Assembly (NCBI RefSeq): GCF_001402875.1
Contig: NZ_CP012946.1
Span: forward strand, 1,466,001-1,530,000
DNA length: 64,000 bases
Direction: 5' to 3'
DNA from: Blastochloris viridis
Lineage (GTDB): Bacteria > Pseudomonadota > Alphaproteobacteria > Rhizobiales > Xanthobacteraceae
Both the position numbers and the translations under genes were made by a program. Positions 3,989 to 7,989 of this stretch are shown here, in pieces. Every line of letters begins with the position of its first letter. Positions within the stretch are counted from its first letter, which is position 1. A model generated the notes under the pieces. It worked only from the letters and a program-made list of their open reading frames with translations. It made no database searches and was not told where the DNA came from.

Positions 3989-4102
3989 GGCACGCCGTAA
4001 CGGGGCGTAGCTGCCGGCCGGTCTTGGTCTTGCAAAAGAGAACGCGAAAACTCAAAGGGATCGATCGCCAGCTGCAATCAGATTGGCGGACGCTCTGGTC
4101 AG

Positions 4103-4446
4103 TGGTGCGGACGACGGGACTCGAACCCGTACTCTCATAGAGAAGCAGATTTTCATACCACTTCGGCTTTCGCCGCCGCCGACCGGCGTTCGTGGTCTGG
4201 ACTGTCCCTTCGCCCTGGCTGGATAGCTTTAGGCGCCGCCCGTCCAGTCTCTACACCTTCCTTCGAACCGGCCGGCGCCTGAGCGCGGACGTGTTCGCAG
4301 GCTTGGCTCGGGATTGGCTTCGGACCTGCCCTCACGACGAAGGCGACCCCTTAGCGTTCCCCGACTTTGAGCGGTTCTACCGCGCGGGTTTCCCCGCGGG
4401 CACTCCAATTAAAGTCTGCTGCGTCTACCGATTTCGCCACGTCCGC
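4103..4446 (-). tRNA. tRNA-Leu (anticodon UAA), interrupted by a group I intron
   Basis: Read on the minus strand, exon 1 is 4446-4412 (35 nt) and exon 2 is 4153-4103 (51 nt, with an encoded CCA). The spliced product has a 7-bp acceptor stem GCGGACG/CGTCCGC, discriminator A and a D-arm with GGTAGACGC. The anticodon stem is GCAGA/TCTGC with loop CTTAAAA (anticodon TAA), followed by a Leu-type long variable arm TTCTC-TAT-GAGAG and the T-arm ACGGG-TTCGAGT-CCCGT. All stems pair. The break lies between U34 and A35 of the anticodon, exactly the site used by the tRNA-Leu(UAA) intron of cyanobacteria and plastids. UUA/UUG-decoding tRNA-Leu is essential, so splicing must be efficient if this is the only copy. 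Confidence 0.95.
4154..4411 (-). ncRNA. Group I self-splicing intron in tRNA-Leu(UAA)
   Basis: The 258-nt intron follows U34 and ends in G, as group I introns do. The last exon bases ACUU can pair with GAGU just inside the intron to form P1, which places the required U.G wobble at the 5' splice site. Downstream there is a P2-like hairpin CGCGGG-GAAA-CCCGCG. Core strings AATCCCGAGCCAAGC and GGTGTAGAGACTGGACGG are close to the blocks that flank P6b in the plastid trnL intron. The string AAGGGACAGTCCAGACC is the likely P7 3' side, pairing with AGACTGGAC. No homing-endonuclease reading frame fits inside. By site and core it should be subgroup IC3, which is an inference. Confidence 0.92.
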
Positions 4447-5027
4447 ATCGCCCCGCTGGCTGGCGAGGCGCTATGCTATTGCATGACGGCGGCGCCGACA
4501 CGAATCCGCCGTTTCATCCTCCGCGCGCCGTACCTAGCCGGGGGGAGGTGACGGCTCAAGAGCGATGTGCATCGCCGCCGCCCGCGCGAAACCACGCGGC
4601 GCCCGACAAGGATGCAGAAACCGGCCGACCGCGAGCCGGTGGAGGATCACGCCGCCGCCAGAAATACGCCAACCAAAGCGATCGCCTCGAACGTGAGGCC
4701 GGCGGCGATCACCAGACGAAACAGGGCGGACATGGGGAATCCTCTATCGGTCGAGCGCCGTGATTGTCGCGCCCGGAAGCGGGGTTTGATCGGTTGGTCG
4801 CGGAACGTGGGCGGAAGGTTCAGGCGAAAAGGTGTCTAAATAGTTTACGACCACAATGAGGCGCGGTTATCGCAAATTATCGATGACCAAGCGGTGCGCG
4901 GCCATGGATGCAATCAAGCTCGCCGCGCCGTGGTGAAGGACCTCCGCATCACAGATTCTCAATCAGATACAATGGCATCGCGGGCGTTGCCGCGAAAATG
5001 AATCCGCATTGGCGCCGGCCGATCCGG
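4447..5027. other. Gap between tRNA-Leu and the monooxygenase gene
   Basis: Of these 580 bases only a possible 28-codon frame (4647-4733, listed) looks like a gene. The part from 4840 to 4900 is AT-richer. It should include the promoter of tRNA-Leu, read leftward. Nothing else was recognised. Confidence 0.4.
4647..4733 (-). CDS. Possible 28-residue single-span membrane peptide
   Basis: The frame runs from ATG at 4733 to TGA. It reads MSALFRLVIAAGLTFEAI followed by ALVGVFLAAA, that is, almost entirely one hydrophobic helix with an Arg near the N-terminus. A purine-rich AGAGGA lies about 6-7 bases upstream and could be a ribosome binding site. Such tiny membrane proteins are real in many bacteria, but a chance frame of this size is also possible. 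No function is assigned. Confidence 0.4.
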   Translation of the reverse strand: MSALFRLVIAAGLTFEAIALVGVFLAAA

Positions 5028-6251
5028 TCAATCCGGACGCCAGCCGTACAGCCAGCGATAGCGGCTGAGCAGCCCGGCCGGCCCGCGCGTCTGCAACACC
5101 ACGTCGCGCGCCAACGCCGCTGGCCCGGCCAGGTGGTACGCGAGGCTGTTGATGCGCGCCTCCTTTTGCACCCGCGCCGTGCGGGGCCGGCGGATGGCCT
5201 CGTAGGCCCGCAGCGCCGCCGGCAAGTTGCCGGGCTGTGCCGCCATGGCCTGGGTCAGCACCACGGCATCCTCGATCGCCATCGCCGCGCCCTGGGCGAG
5301 GAACGGCAGCATCGGGTGGGCGGCGTCGCCGAGCAGGGTCTGTGCGCCGCGGCCCCACGCCGTCAGCGGCGGACGGTCGGCCAGCCGCCAGGTCAGCCAG
5401 GTCGCGGGCTGCTCGATCAGGGCCCGCGCCGGGGCGGCCCAGCGCTCGAAGCGGCGGATCAGGACCTCGGGGTCGCCGACGCCGCTCCAGGACGAGCCGC
5501 CAGCCTCGCTCGGCTTGATGGTCACGGCAGTCTCGTCGCGAACGACCGCAACGATGTTGCAGGCGCTGCCGCGGCGGATGGGATAGTGCACGAGATGGGC
5601 GTCCGGGCCGAGCCACAGCCCGGAATCGAGCCCGGCAAGTTCGGGCGGAAGGCTCTCGGACGGAATGGTGGTGCGCCACGCCGTGCGTCCGCTGACGACC
5701 GGGGCCCGCGCGTCGCCGGCGCCGCGCCTGACCATCGACCAAAGGCCATCGGCGCCGATCAGGGCGGCGGCGGTCTCCTCGCGGCGCTCCCGGCCGGTCA
5801 CGAGCGAGACGGTAACGCCCTCAGGGTTCAGCGCGAACGCCTCCACCGTGGTGCCGAGCGTGATCTTGATGGCGGGCGTCGCAGCGACGGCCGCAGCGAG
5901 CGCGGCGATCAAATCGGCACGGTGGACCACCAGCCACGGGCGGCCGAACCGCCGCGCCACCGTCGAGCCCAGCGGCATACGAAGGATCTCGTGTCCCGAG
6001 CGGCCGTTGCGGATCACCATTGCGCGCGGCTCGACCGCGACCGCGGCGACGCGGTCGAGCAGGCCGAGGCGCGCCAGCGCCGCAGTCGCGTTGGGCGTGA
6101 GCTGGATGCCGGCGCCGATCTCGGTGACCTGCGGCGCGCGCTCGATCACCGAAACGGCAAAGCCGGCGTCGGCCAGTCCCACGGCGGCTGCCAGTCCGCC
6201 GACGCCGGCGCCGGCGATCATGACCCGGGGTCTATCGGTGAAAGGTGTCAC
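5028..6251 (-). CDS. FAD-dependent monooxygenase (salicylate hydroxylase-like, UbiH/PHBH fold)
   Basis: Class A flavoprotein hydroxylase acting on an aromatic or related substrate with NAD(P)H and O2. The FAD dinucleotide motif AGAGVGGLAAAVGLADAG is at the N-terminus and is followed by ERAPQVTEIGAGIQLTPNA. The DG motif is GADGLWSMVRRG near residue 190, and the GD motif is LLGDAAHPMLPFLAQGAAMAIEDA near residue 300. With the GTG at 6251 it has 407 residues. A GTG at 6287 would add 12 basic residues, and an ATG at 6221 would cut into the first beta strand; no strong ribosome site decides. The zf-CHCC gene lies just upstream on the same strand. The substrate is unknown. Confidence 0.85.
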   Translation of the reverse strand: MTPFTDRPRVMIAGAGVGGLAAAVGLADAGFAVSVIERAPQVTEIGAGIQLTPNATAALARLGLLDRVAAVAVEPRAMVIRNGRSGHEILRMPLGSTVARRFGRPWLVVHRADLIAALAAAVAATPAIKITLGTTVEAFALNPEGVTVSLVTGRERREETAAALIGADGLWSMVRRGAGDARAPVVSGRTAWRTTIPSESLPPELAGLDSGLWLGPDAHLVHYPIRRGSACNIVAVVRDETAVTIKPSEAGGSSWSGVGDPEVLIRRFERWAAPARALIEQPATWLTWRLADRPPLTAWGRGAQTLLGDAAHPMLPFLAQGAAMAIEDAVVLTQAMAAQPGNLPAALRAYEAIRRPRTARVQKEARINSLAYHLAGPAALARDVVLQTRGPAGLLSRYRWLYGWRPD

Positions 6252-6410
6252 GTTGTGTCTGCGTCGATTGCGGCGCGACAGCAGCACAGCTGCAGGCCCG
6301 AGGCGAGGGCCGGCGGCCGCAGGTGCTACCCGCTGTCGCGCGCGGGTGGGTAAAGGCAGGCAGGGAGGTGTCAGCAGATCAGAGTCGGGCGCGGCAGGCG
6401 AGCCCTGCGA

Positions 6411-6665
6411 TCACGCCGCATCGGCCGGGGCGTACTGCCAGACGCAGTCCGCCGGCCGCGCCTCGCCGCTGCGCAGCGCCGGATCGAACCGGTACAGCGT
6501 CGAGCAATAGGAGCAGATGATCTCGCTCTCGCCGCCCATGTCGAGGAAAACGTGGGGGTGATCGTTGGGCGGCGGCGCGCCGATGCACATGAATTCCTTG
6601 GCGCCGACCTCGATCACCGGCACGCCGGGACCGTTATGGAAATGGGGAACAATGTGGCCAGCCAT
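6411..6665 (-). CDS. zf-CHCC zinc-finger domain protein (NDUFS6-like)
   Basis: Small protein (84 residues from ATG 6665) of the zinc-finger CHCC family, related to the NDUFS6/13-kDa accessory subunit of respiratory complex I. The motif is visible as the conserved VIEVGAKEFMCIGAPPPNDHPHVFLDMG followed by EIICSYCSTLYRF, giving Cys-His-Cys-Cys ligands. The frame continues upstream to the insertion sequence, but MAGHIVPHFHN is the usual start. The ISAs1 element sits only 66 bp upstream of this start, so the native promoter region has been split. The match to the family motif is strong; its role in complex I is known for the mitochondrial relative and inferred here. Confidence 0.85.
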   Translation of the reverse strand: MAGHIVPHFHNGPGVPVIEVGAKEFMCIGAPPPNDHPHVFLDMGGESEIICSYCSTLYRFDPALRSGEARPADCVWQYAPADAA

Positions 6666-6730
6666 GCGCGACCCTTGCAGCTCGAAAATCCAACCATAGC
6701 GGCCGAATCGCCGCCACGCCAGCACCCGCG

Positions 6731-6740
6731 CCACCGGCAC
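6731..6740. repeat. Target-site duplication, left copy
   Basis: The 10-mer CCACCGGCAC directly abuts the left end of the insertion sequence and is repeated exactly at 7990-7999 beyond the right end. This length fits the ISAs1 family. Confidence 0.9.
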
Positions 6741-7989
6741 CAGGGCGATCGGGTGAAGAAAGGGGTGACAAAGGCCTGAAGTGCTGAATCTGTCGGTTCC
6801 TCCGATTCGGATGCGGAGGATGGGCGATGGAGCCAGCGGAACCGGACTTTGCCGCGCTTGGGGAAGCTCTTGTTTTCCTGGACTATTTCAAGGACATGCC
6901 CGACCCGCGCCAGCGCGGCAAGGTGATGTACTCGCTGGAGGAGGTGCTGCTGCTGTGCCTGCTGGCGGTGCTGGCCGGCGCCGAGACCTTCGTCGACATC
7001 GCAAGGTTCGGCGAGACGAAGCTCGACCTGCTGCGCCGGTTCCGCACGTTTCTCCATGGCACCCCCTCGCACGACCACCTCGGCGACATCCTCGCCACCC
7101 TCGATGCTGCGCAGTTCCAGCGTTGCTTCGTCGCCTGGGTGGCGGCGGTGACCGGGGCGCCCGCAGACGTGATCGCCATCGACGGCAAGACGCTGCGCCG
7201 CTCGGCTAAGAGGGACGCCAAGGCGGCGGTCCACATGGTGTCCGCCTTCGCGGCGCGCCAGCGCCTGGTGCTCGGCCAGGTCAAGGTGGCCGACAAGTCG
7301 AACGAGATCGTCGCCATCCCCCAACTGCTCTCCCTGCTGTCGATCGAGGGCGCCATCGTCACCATCGACGCCATGGGCTGCCAGCGCGCCATCGCCGCGC
7401 AAATCCTCGCCCAGAAGGCCGACTATGTGCTGGCCCTGAAAGGCAACCAGGGCAGCTTGCGAGAGGACGTCGAGCTGTTCGCCGCCGAGCAGAAAGCCAA
7501 TGGTTTCAAGGACACAGCGATCAGCCGCCATCACAGCGTCGATGGCGATCACGGCCGCATCGAGACCCGCACCACCACGGTGATGCACGACGTGGCTTGG
7601 CTCCGAGACCGTCACGATTGGCCCGGCCTGACCAGTGTCGTCATGGTCGAAAGCATGCGCGAGATCGGCGCCAAGTGCGAGCAGGAGACCCGCTTCTACA
7701 TCGCCTCGCTGGCGTCCCCGGCCGACCAGCTCGGACCCGTCATCCGCAGCCATTGGGCGGTGGAGAACAGCCTGCATTGGATCATGGACATGGTGTTCCG
7801 CGATGACGACTGCCGCGTCCGCACCGATCACGCCCCCGCCAATTTCACCACCCTCAAGCACATGGCCCTCAATCTCATCCGCAAGGCCCCGGGCAAGGAT
7901 TCTCTCCGCCTCAAGCGAAAAGTCGCCGCCTGGGACGACGACTTCCTCGCAAGTCTCCTGGCAGCGTGATTTTTCACCCGATTGCCCTG
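6741..7989 (+). mobile_element. Complete ISAs1-family insertion sequence (1249 bp)
   Basis: The left terminal repeat starts CAGGGCGATCGGGTGAAGAA at 6741. The right one, read inward on the minus strand from 7989, is CAGGGCAATCGGGTGAAAA. The two differ at only two positions over 19 bases. A perfect 10-bp direct repeat flanks the element. Inside is one intact 380-codon transposase gene. Perfect target duplications and an intact gene point to a recent insertion. Confidence 0.95.
6827..7969 (+). CDS. ISAs1 family transposase
   Basis: DDE transposase of the ISAs1 / H-repeat-associated type, 380 residues, full length. The N-terminal region has the family pattern FLDYFKDMPDPRQRGKVMYSL. The catalytic domain has the first Asp in AIDGKTLRRSA near residue 123, the second Asp in IVTIDAMGCQ near residue 185, LALKGNQG, and the Glu in HWAVENSLHWIMDMVFRDDDCRVR near residue 310. 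The stop lies just inside the right terminal repeat. No frameshift or internal stop is present, so it is probably active. Confidence 0.95.
   Translation: MEPAEPDFAALGEALVFLDYFKDMPDPRQRGKVMYSLEEVLLLCLLAVLAGAETFVDIARFGETKLDLLRRFRTFLHGTPSHDHLGDILATLDAAQFQRCFVAWVAAVTGAPADVIAIDGKTLRRSAKRDAKAAVHMVSAFAARQRLVLGQVKVADKSNEIVAIPQLLSLLSIEGAIVTIDAMGCQRAIAAQILAQKADYVLALKGNQGSLREDVELFAAEQKANGFKDTAISRHHSVDGDHGRIETRTTTVMHDVAWLRDRHDWPGLTSVVMVESMREIGAKCEQETRFYIASLASPADQLGPVIRSHWAVENSLHWIMDMVFRDDDCRVRTDHAPANFTTLKHMALNLIRKAPGKDSLRLKRKVAAWDDDFLASLLAA

Follow-up and report, generated by a model that had tools for sequence, protein, structure and literature searches.

The interrupted tRNA-Leu(UAA) gene

The window, that is, the whole 64-kb stretch of Blastochloris viridis DNA that was analysed, carries a tRNA-Leu(UAA) gene interrupted by a small intron in the anticodon loop (Table 1). 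Exon 1 (35 nt) ends with GACTT, and exon 2 begins with AAAATCTGC and ends with CCA. When the intron is removed, the joined exons are read by ARAGORN as tRNA-Leu(taa) of 86 nt, a class II cloverleaf with a UAA anticodon, in agreement with the first-pass annotation. A cut shifted by one base, leaving a 257-nt intron, also gives a cloverleaf, but one without any standard anticodon. The splice-site rule of group I introns is obeyed, in that the U at the exon end is paired with the G of the internal guide and the intron terminates with G. In the ARAGORN reading, the guide G lies 6 nt into the intron, with three more pairs beyond the U.G. The break after U34, the U.G in P1 and the terminal G, all of which had been proposed at first reading, are upheld by the sequence and by ARAGORN on the joined exons. 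The prediction that a standard tRNA scan could miss this gene was also borne out: a default ARAGORN scan passes over the locus, and ARAGORN with intron search calls it tRNA-Phe(gaa) with a 258-nt intron, the anticodon being wrong. A 119-codon frame on the plus strand (4192-4551) runs across the intron and was taken as chance.

A small ORF and two neighbouring genes lie upstream of the tRNA (Table 1). The intergenic stretch downstream of it (4026-4100) recurs many times in the congeners G001 and G002. A transposase-like frame, named by eye, at 6827-7969 separates the zinc-finger gene from the next block that the window has in common with the congeners; no match to this frame was found in the congener stretches.

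Table 1. Positions in the window of the interrupted tRNA gene, of elements within its intron and of neighbouring genes
Feature	Position	Strand	Basis
tRNA-Leu(UAA) 3′ exon, with A35A36, long variable arm and encoded CCA	4103..4153	-	sequence and ARAGORN
Group I intron, 258 nt, last base G	4154..4411	-	sequence, R1 match, ARAGORN
Catalytic core P3-P8, full R1 positions 1-153	4186..4378	-	R1 match
Enlarged P6 arm, longer than in relatives G026, G059 and G021; site of the HNH frame of some relatives, none here	4261..4300	-	alignment
Enlarged P5 arm, longer than in relatives G026, G059 and G021	4316..4356	-	alignment
GAGU guide within the intron, base-paired in P1 to ACUU at the end of the exon, with the U.G marking the 5′ splice site	4402..4405	-	sequence reading; ARAGORN for the guide G
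tRNA-Leu(UAA) 5′ exon, ending at U34	4412..4446	-	sequence reading and ARAGORN, joined exons
ORF of 28 codons, located upstream of the tRNA and likewise present in the congeners G001 and G002	4647..4733	-	by eye; DNA similarity
FAD-dependent monooxygenase-like gene (name by eye), common to tRNA-Leu(UAA) loci of other Hyphomicrobiales	5028..6287	-	ORF list, neighbourhood comparison
Small zinc-finger-like gene (name by eye), conserved neighbour	6411..6740	-	ORF list, neighbourhood comparison

Identity of the group I intron

Relatives were sought with a pattern based on the sequence at the 3′ splice site in four homologues, which was run on contigs of one genome per species. At least 119 stretches were found, and among the matches listed 108 of 119 are tRNA-Leu(UAA) once the exons are joined. 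For the covariance model R1, 52 diverse cores were picked and the 40 shortest were used, the window's intron being excluded. In these 40 relatives, 98.9% of the cells of P3, P4, P5, P6, P6a, P7 and P8 are paired, and both-sided changes occur in 16 of the 32 pairs. None of 500 shuffles matches the real alignment on any of five measures. Controls with slid partners reach a pairing of only 31-47%, a comparison in which the structure is favoured because it was named from these same relatives. R1 has its sole match in the window at the intron (127.1 bits, E 1.3e-28), and the alignment of the window's intron to it marks no non-standard core pair. The folding energy is unremarkable (z -1.64), since 7 of 100 shuffles fold equally well.

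The general Rfam model RF00028, which had been suggested as a check, gave a negative result both at the locus and genome-wide, though R1 matches. Nothing in Rfam reaches a gathering score at the locus, and RF00028 has no match there at E up to 1 and none in the whole genome at E up to 10. At 20 loci searched, RF00028 exceeds its gathering score in eight, corresponding to 8 of 19 relatives, with the window's own locus as the negative twentieth. In the relative L222, whose mature tRNA is equal to that of the window, it gives 36.7 bits (E 3.6e-6), below the gathering score. The likely reason for the miss is the length of the P5 and P6 arms (Table 1), and the absent RF00028 match looks like a limit of that model. 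The R1 score together with the covariation in the relatives confirms the initial observation: a group I intron resides in the tRNA-Leu(UAA) gene. Its host tRNA and core suggest that it belongs to subgroup IC3.

Among the proteobacteria, group I introns occur in tRNA-Arg(CCU) of Agrobacterium and tRNA-Ile(CAU) of Azoarcus. These have the same kind of core as the window's intron but reside in other tRNAs at another splice position; R1 also matches introns in genes with an Arg(CCU) reading within the order. Vepritskiy is said to have reported in 2002 a tRNA-Leu-TAA intron from a deep-subsurface Pseudomonas, which would share the tRNA with the window's intron, although Pseudomonas is a gammaproteobacterium. 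The available text of one paper names alpha- and beta-proteobacteria for tRNA introns (PMC4033280). That of another describes tRNA-Leu-TAA introns in the gammaproteobacteria Beggiatoa and Thiomargarita, the structure or type of which was not determined in that study as far as this text goes (PMC4853749); they share the tRNA and a proteobacterial host with the window's intron, but their hosts are gammaproteobacterial. A literature search for a group I intron in alphaproteobacterial tRNALeu returned fungal work only.

Distribution among bacteria

Genomes drawn at the order, class and phylum levels, which partly overlap, were surveyed with R1 at E up to 0.01. Matches were found in 51 of 397 genomes (27 of 141 genera) in the order draw, in 43 of 337 in the class draw and in 41 of 398 in the phylum draw. 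The same interruption as in the window was sought in the order and was found: the host of the intron is tRNA-Leu(UAA) in 24 of the 51 order-level genomes with a match, Blastochloris viridis included. tRNA-Arg(CCU) is among the readings in 12 of the 51, and a tRNA-Thr(GGU) reading is obtained in eight, all of one genus; the remaining seven consist of one Leu(CAA)-like case and six without an assigned host tRNA. R1 was built from Leu introns, yet it detects other tRNA hosts. Loci of the tRNA-Thr(GGU) type are L241, L243-L245, L249 and L255-L257. The distribution is uneven within a genus of the window's family, in which four genomes have an R1 match and at least ten have none. The 119 stretches listed from the pattern scan include Bacteroidota, Acidobacteriota, Planctomycetota, one Chloroflexota and one Bdellovibrionales record, although many of these records are metagenome bins, for which mis-binning is possible. 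The window's intron belongs to a lineage much commoner than was thought in the first-pass annotation, where a rarely noted proteobacterial lineage had been considered: such introns are common in all three draws, and gammaproteobacterial cases are in print, as the available text shows (PMC4853749).

Copies on plasmids and in phages

With the 344-nt unit of tRNA and intron as query, 1292 plasmid records are matched at E up to 1e-5, and in 1261 of them the match spans 80% of the query or more; the best 25 of the 1292 have 78.0% identity to the window's unit. The copy on pCTX-M3 (L461:6001-6299) is an unannotated intron-bearing tRNA-Leu(UAA) of 299 nt and of alphaproteobacterial type, which R1 scores at 144.8 bits. 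Its exon 1 is equal to the window's by eye and its exon 2 is 98% identical, and the whole unit has 95% identity to that of Enterovirga (L140) and 78% to that of the window. Next to it lie aac(3)-IId and a gene for an AAA ATPase. All five records inspected have an aac(3)-II gene beside the copy, in one of them as a shorter AAC(3)-IIc call. The pCTX-M3 copy as query finds 1280 plasmid records, 1273 of them at 99% or more. Among 5426 complete E. coli genomes it has a match in 635, and in 624 of these the match spans 80% of the copy or more. Plasmids carrying this type of copy are enterobacterial or from Acinetobacter. In a tree that includes phages, the pCTX-M3 copy and the window's intron each fall in a starred 24-row set without phage rows.

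The same 3′ splice-site pattern finds at least 120 stretches in viral contigs (L341-L460). Among the 120 listed, 111 are tRNA-Leu(UAA) on joining, and 87 of these 111 sit with other tRNA genes; R1 matched 79 of 80 of the listed stretches on which it was run. Neighbouring proteins matched a PHROG in all ten cases tested, including a baseplate hub with tail lysozyme, RIIB and DNA ligase. Phage Atu_ph07 (L463) has a tRNA-Leu with a 278-nt intron and phage Daredevil (L462) a tRNA-Lys(ttt) with a 238-nt intron near an integrase, each with 117 bits by R1, and one uncultured phage gives 64 bits. In the available part of its description, Daredevil is said not to encode its own tRNA and to form clear plaques (PMC10865867), and these clear plaques speak against a working copy. 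A direct phage origin of the window's copy was considered and rejected, as the eight best-scoring phage introns are only 72-80% identical to it and most phage introns form clusters of their own (6 changes versus a shuffle mean of 73).

Probable exchange of the allele and vertical descent

Movement of the tRNA-plus-intron allele between bacteria is well supported. The introns from the window's family, six in all, are not monophyletic: in a tree of 104 rows, from which 40 long or distant rows had been left out and in which the bootstrap had not settled, a constraint that holds them together costs 186 log units (AU p 2.7e-10), the group having been fixed by taxonomy but tested after the first tree had been seen. 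The smallest well-supported set around the window's intron in this tree comprises 51 rows. In the first, wider tree, the intron falls in a set of 23 (SH-aLRT 95), partly grouped by order, with Caulobacteraceae, Paracoccaceae, Roseobacteraceae, Methylobacteriaceae, Chelatococcaceae, Nitrobacteraceae and one Sphingomonadaceae bin. The mature tRNA of the window is identical to that of G377 from another family, and that of G401 from a third family differs from it only by one missing base, whereas the best of 32 intronless loci has 86% identity to it. Exon identity tracks the intron clade more than the family. The congeners G001 and G002 have an unrelated, intronless tRNA-Leu(UAA) at the same locus, with 67-68% identity to the window's. 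The "horizontal acquisition" suggested at first reading holds in the form of movement among proteobacteria, for which the AU test and the identity of tRNAs across families argue.

Alternatively, the intron might have been inherited vertically from an ancestral alphaproteobacterium with many losses, the similarity across families reflecting slow evolution of one old allele. The order zinc finger-monooxygenase-tRNA is indeed kept in loci of Bradyrhizobium, Enterovirga, Camelimonas and Chelatococcus, the monooxygenase adjoins two intronless loci (G009 and G055), and clustering by order is partially seen within the clade. This order-level structure indicates that vertical descent explains part of the pattern. 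As a full account it is unlikely, however, given the scatter of the family's introns, the association of exon identity with the intron clade rather than the family, and the close cousin on plasmids, which shows that units of this kind can travel. Because the neighbourhood is common to loci with and without the intron, the place itself is inherited and any transfer has to be a replacement there, so that only the allele seems to have been exchanged. No monooxygenase match was found beside the tRNA-Leu(UAA) locus of G001 and G002, and the DNA adjoining the window's tRNA is not shared by its nearest intron relatives. The vehicle for exchange of the allele may have been a phage, a plasmid or an endonuclease acting in trans.

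Direct acquisition from cyanobacteria or plastids is very unlikely: the insertion site, identical to that of the cyanobacterial trnL intron, would fit such a source, but the nearest relatives found are alphaproteobacterial. A pattern scan of viral contigs for a cyanobacterial-type intron gave no match. According to the available text on the cyanobacterial and plastid trnL intron (PMC4476775), it shares with the window's intron the tRNA and the small size, whereas the latter is alphaproteobacterial.

HNH frames and orphan tRNA halves

In six gammaproteobacterial introns of 688-698 nt, P6 houses an antisense reading frame of about 154 codons. Four of these frames were tested; each gave HNH matches at E up to 0.01, and two exceed the Pfam cut-off. 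Inspection by eye shows the same antisense frame in L182 as well as in G663, whose assembly carries 8% contamination. Loci with antisense HNH frames in P6 of tRNA introns are L107, L109, L118, L143, L154, L191, L182 and L330. Among the listed phage introns longer than 600 nt, lengths that rest on the joining script, an HNH-type motif is seen by eye in 13 of 17 (11 in the sense direction and two on the opposite strand). Since the R1 core is unsplit in several phage introns, the frame there may not be within P6, or the 5′ splice site may have been misplaced. The ORF list contains no homing endonuclease frame in the window's 258-nt intron.

A 5′ half of tRNA-Leu is found 106-405 nt upstream of 9 of 147 intron-bearing loci and in 0 of 147 shuffled stretches, at a criterion of at least 24 matches in 35 and with one shuffle per locus. 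Most of these orphan halves end at GACTTAA. The loci are L140, L097, L228, L133, L113, L176, L141, L126 and L195, and a further orphan 5′ half lies at L320:6065-6099. Among 36 intronless loci, some of which come from the same genome, only that of G030 has an orphan half. In G030, a member of the window's family, a tRNA-Leu(UAA) like that of G001 and G002 follows by about 140 bases a 5′ half that stops near the anticodon; the missing 3′ half was not found in L320 and seven 20-kb stretches. In tRNA-dependent lysogeny, as presented in the available text of PMC10865867, a host tRNA gene is broken by integration and the phage supplies a complete one. By analogy, the orphan halves of some relatives suggest integration of this kind. 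In contrast, nothing of that sort is seen beside the window's tRNA, and its first 12 kb contain no orphan half.

A bolder and rather doubtful reading is that the tRNA-Leu(UAA) with its anticodon-loop intron constitutes a mobile replacement unit carried by phages, plasmids and other elements. Such elements would disrupt the host's own tRNA-Leu(UAA) in its anticodon loop and supply a complete intron-bearing copy, and the intron would then deprive the next integrase or anticodon nuclease of its target. The orphan halves, the plasmid copies and the phage copies might be three views of one traffic, with HNH genes within the intron as a second engine.

Probable decoding of UUA by the spliced tRNA

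In the 3.72-Mb genome, RF00005 has 43 matches, 41 of which are over the cut-off. The other Leu tRNA genes have the anticodons GAG, CAG, TAG and CAA, and RF00005 together with ARAGORN with introns found no second tRNA-Leu(UAA) in the genome. The first-pass annotation had set two observations jointly against its own reading; one, the lack of an RF00028 match, was made, and the other, a second uninterrupted tRNA-Leu(UAA), was not. TTA is rare yet used, with 6 of 17,855 codons in 58 script-predicted genes of the window. Since no further UAA gene came to light, UUA can be read only if the interrupted gene is functional. That it is a pseudogene which no longer yields tRNA is hardly credible, for the negative RF00028 search, which might point that way, is opposed by the failure to find any other tRNA-Leu(UAA) in the genome, by intact exons with an encoded CCA and by a core in which the R1 alignment marks no non-standard pair.

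The exons, fold, covariation, splice-site rules and sole copy are computational observations, and they make self-splicing in the cell a plausible outcome. The interrupted gene would be transcribed as a pre-tRNA, in which the intron would fold into a group I ribozyme with the U.G in P1 setting the 5′ splice site. By means of an external guanosine and two transesterifications, the intron would remove itself and U34 would be joined to A35. This would yield tRNA-Leu(UAA); no other tRNA that decodes UUA was found in the genome. The tRNA-plus-intron allele, in turn, has most likely passed from one bacterium to another and displaced the tRNA already present at a fixed locus, leading to a patchy distribution and to an intron tree out of step with the family. 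Taken as a whole, a self-splicing pre-tRNA-Leu(UAA) that serves as sole UUA decoder and whose allele moved between bacteria by replacement is a highly probable reading of the locus.

Implications

An essential-looking tRNA gene would depend on a ribozyme that is missed by the general Rfam model, and the tRNA inventories of many proteobacteria may consequently lack a UUA decoder. The intron-bearing tRNA genes of phages contrast with a 2014 review, the available text of which states that all phage introns seen until then were in protein-coding genes (PMC3984707). The plasmid cousin beside aac(3)-II is a possible marker for tracing the origin of this aminoglycoside-resistance gene. The larger interest lies in the mobility of the tRNA-plus-intron unit, through which the spread of small introns without an endonuclease gene of their own becomes testable.
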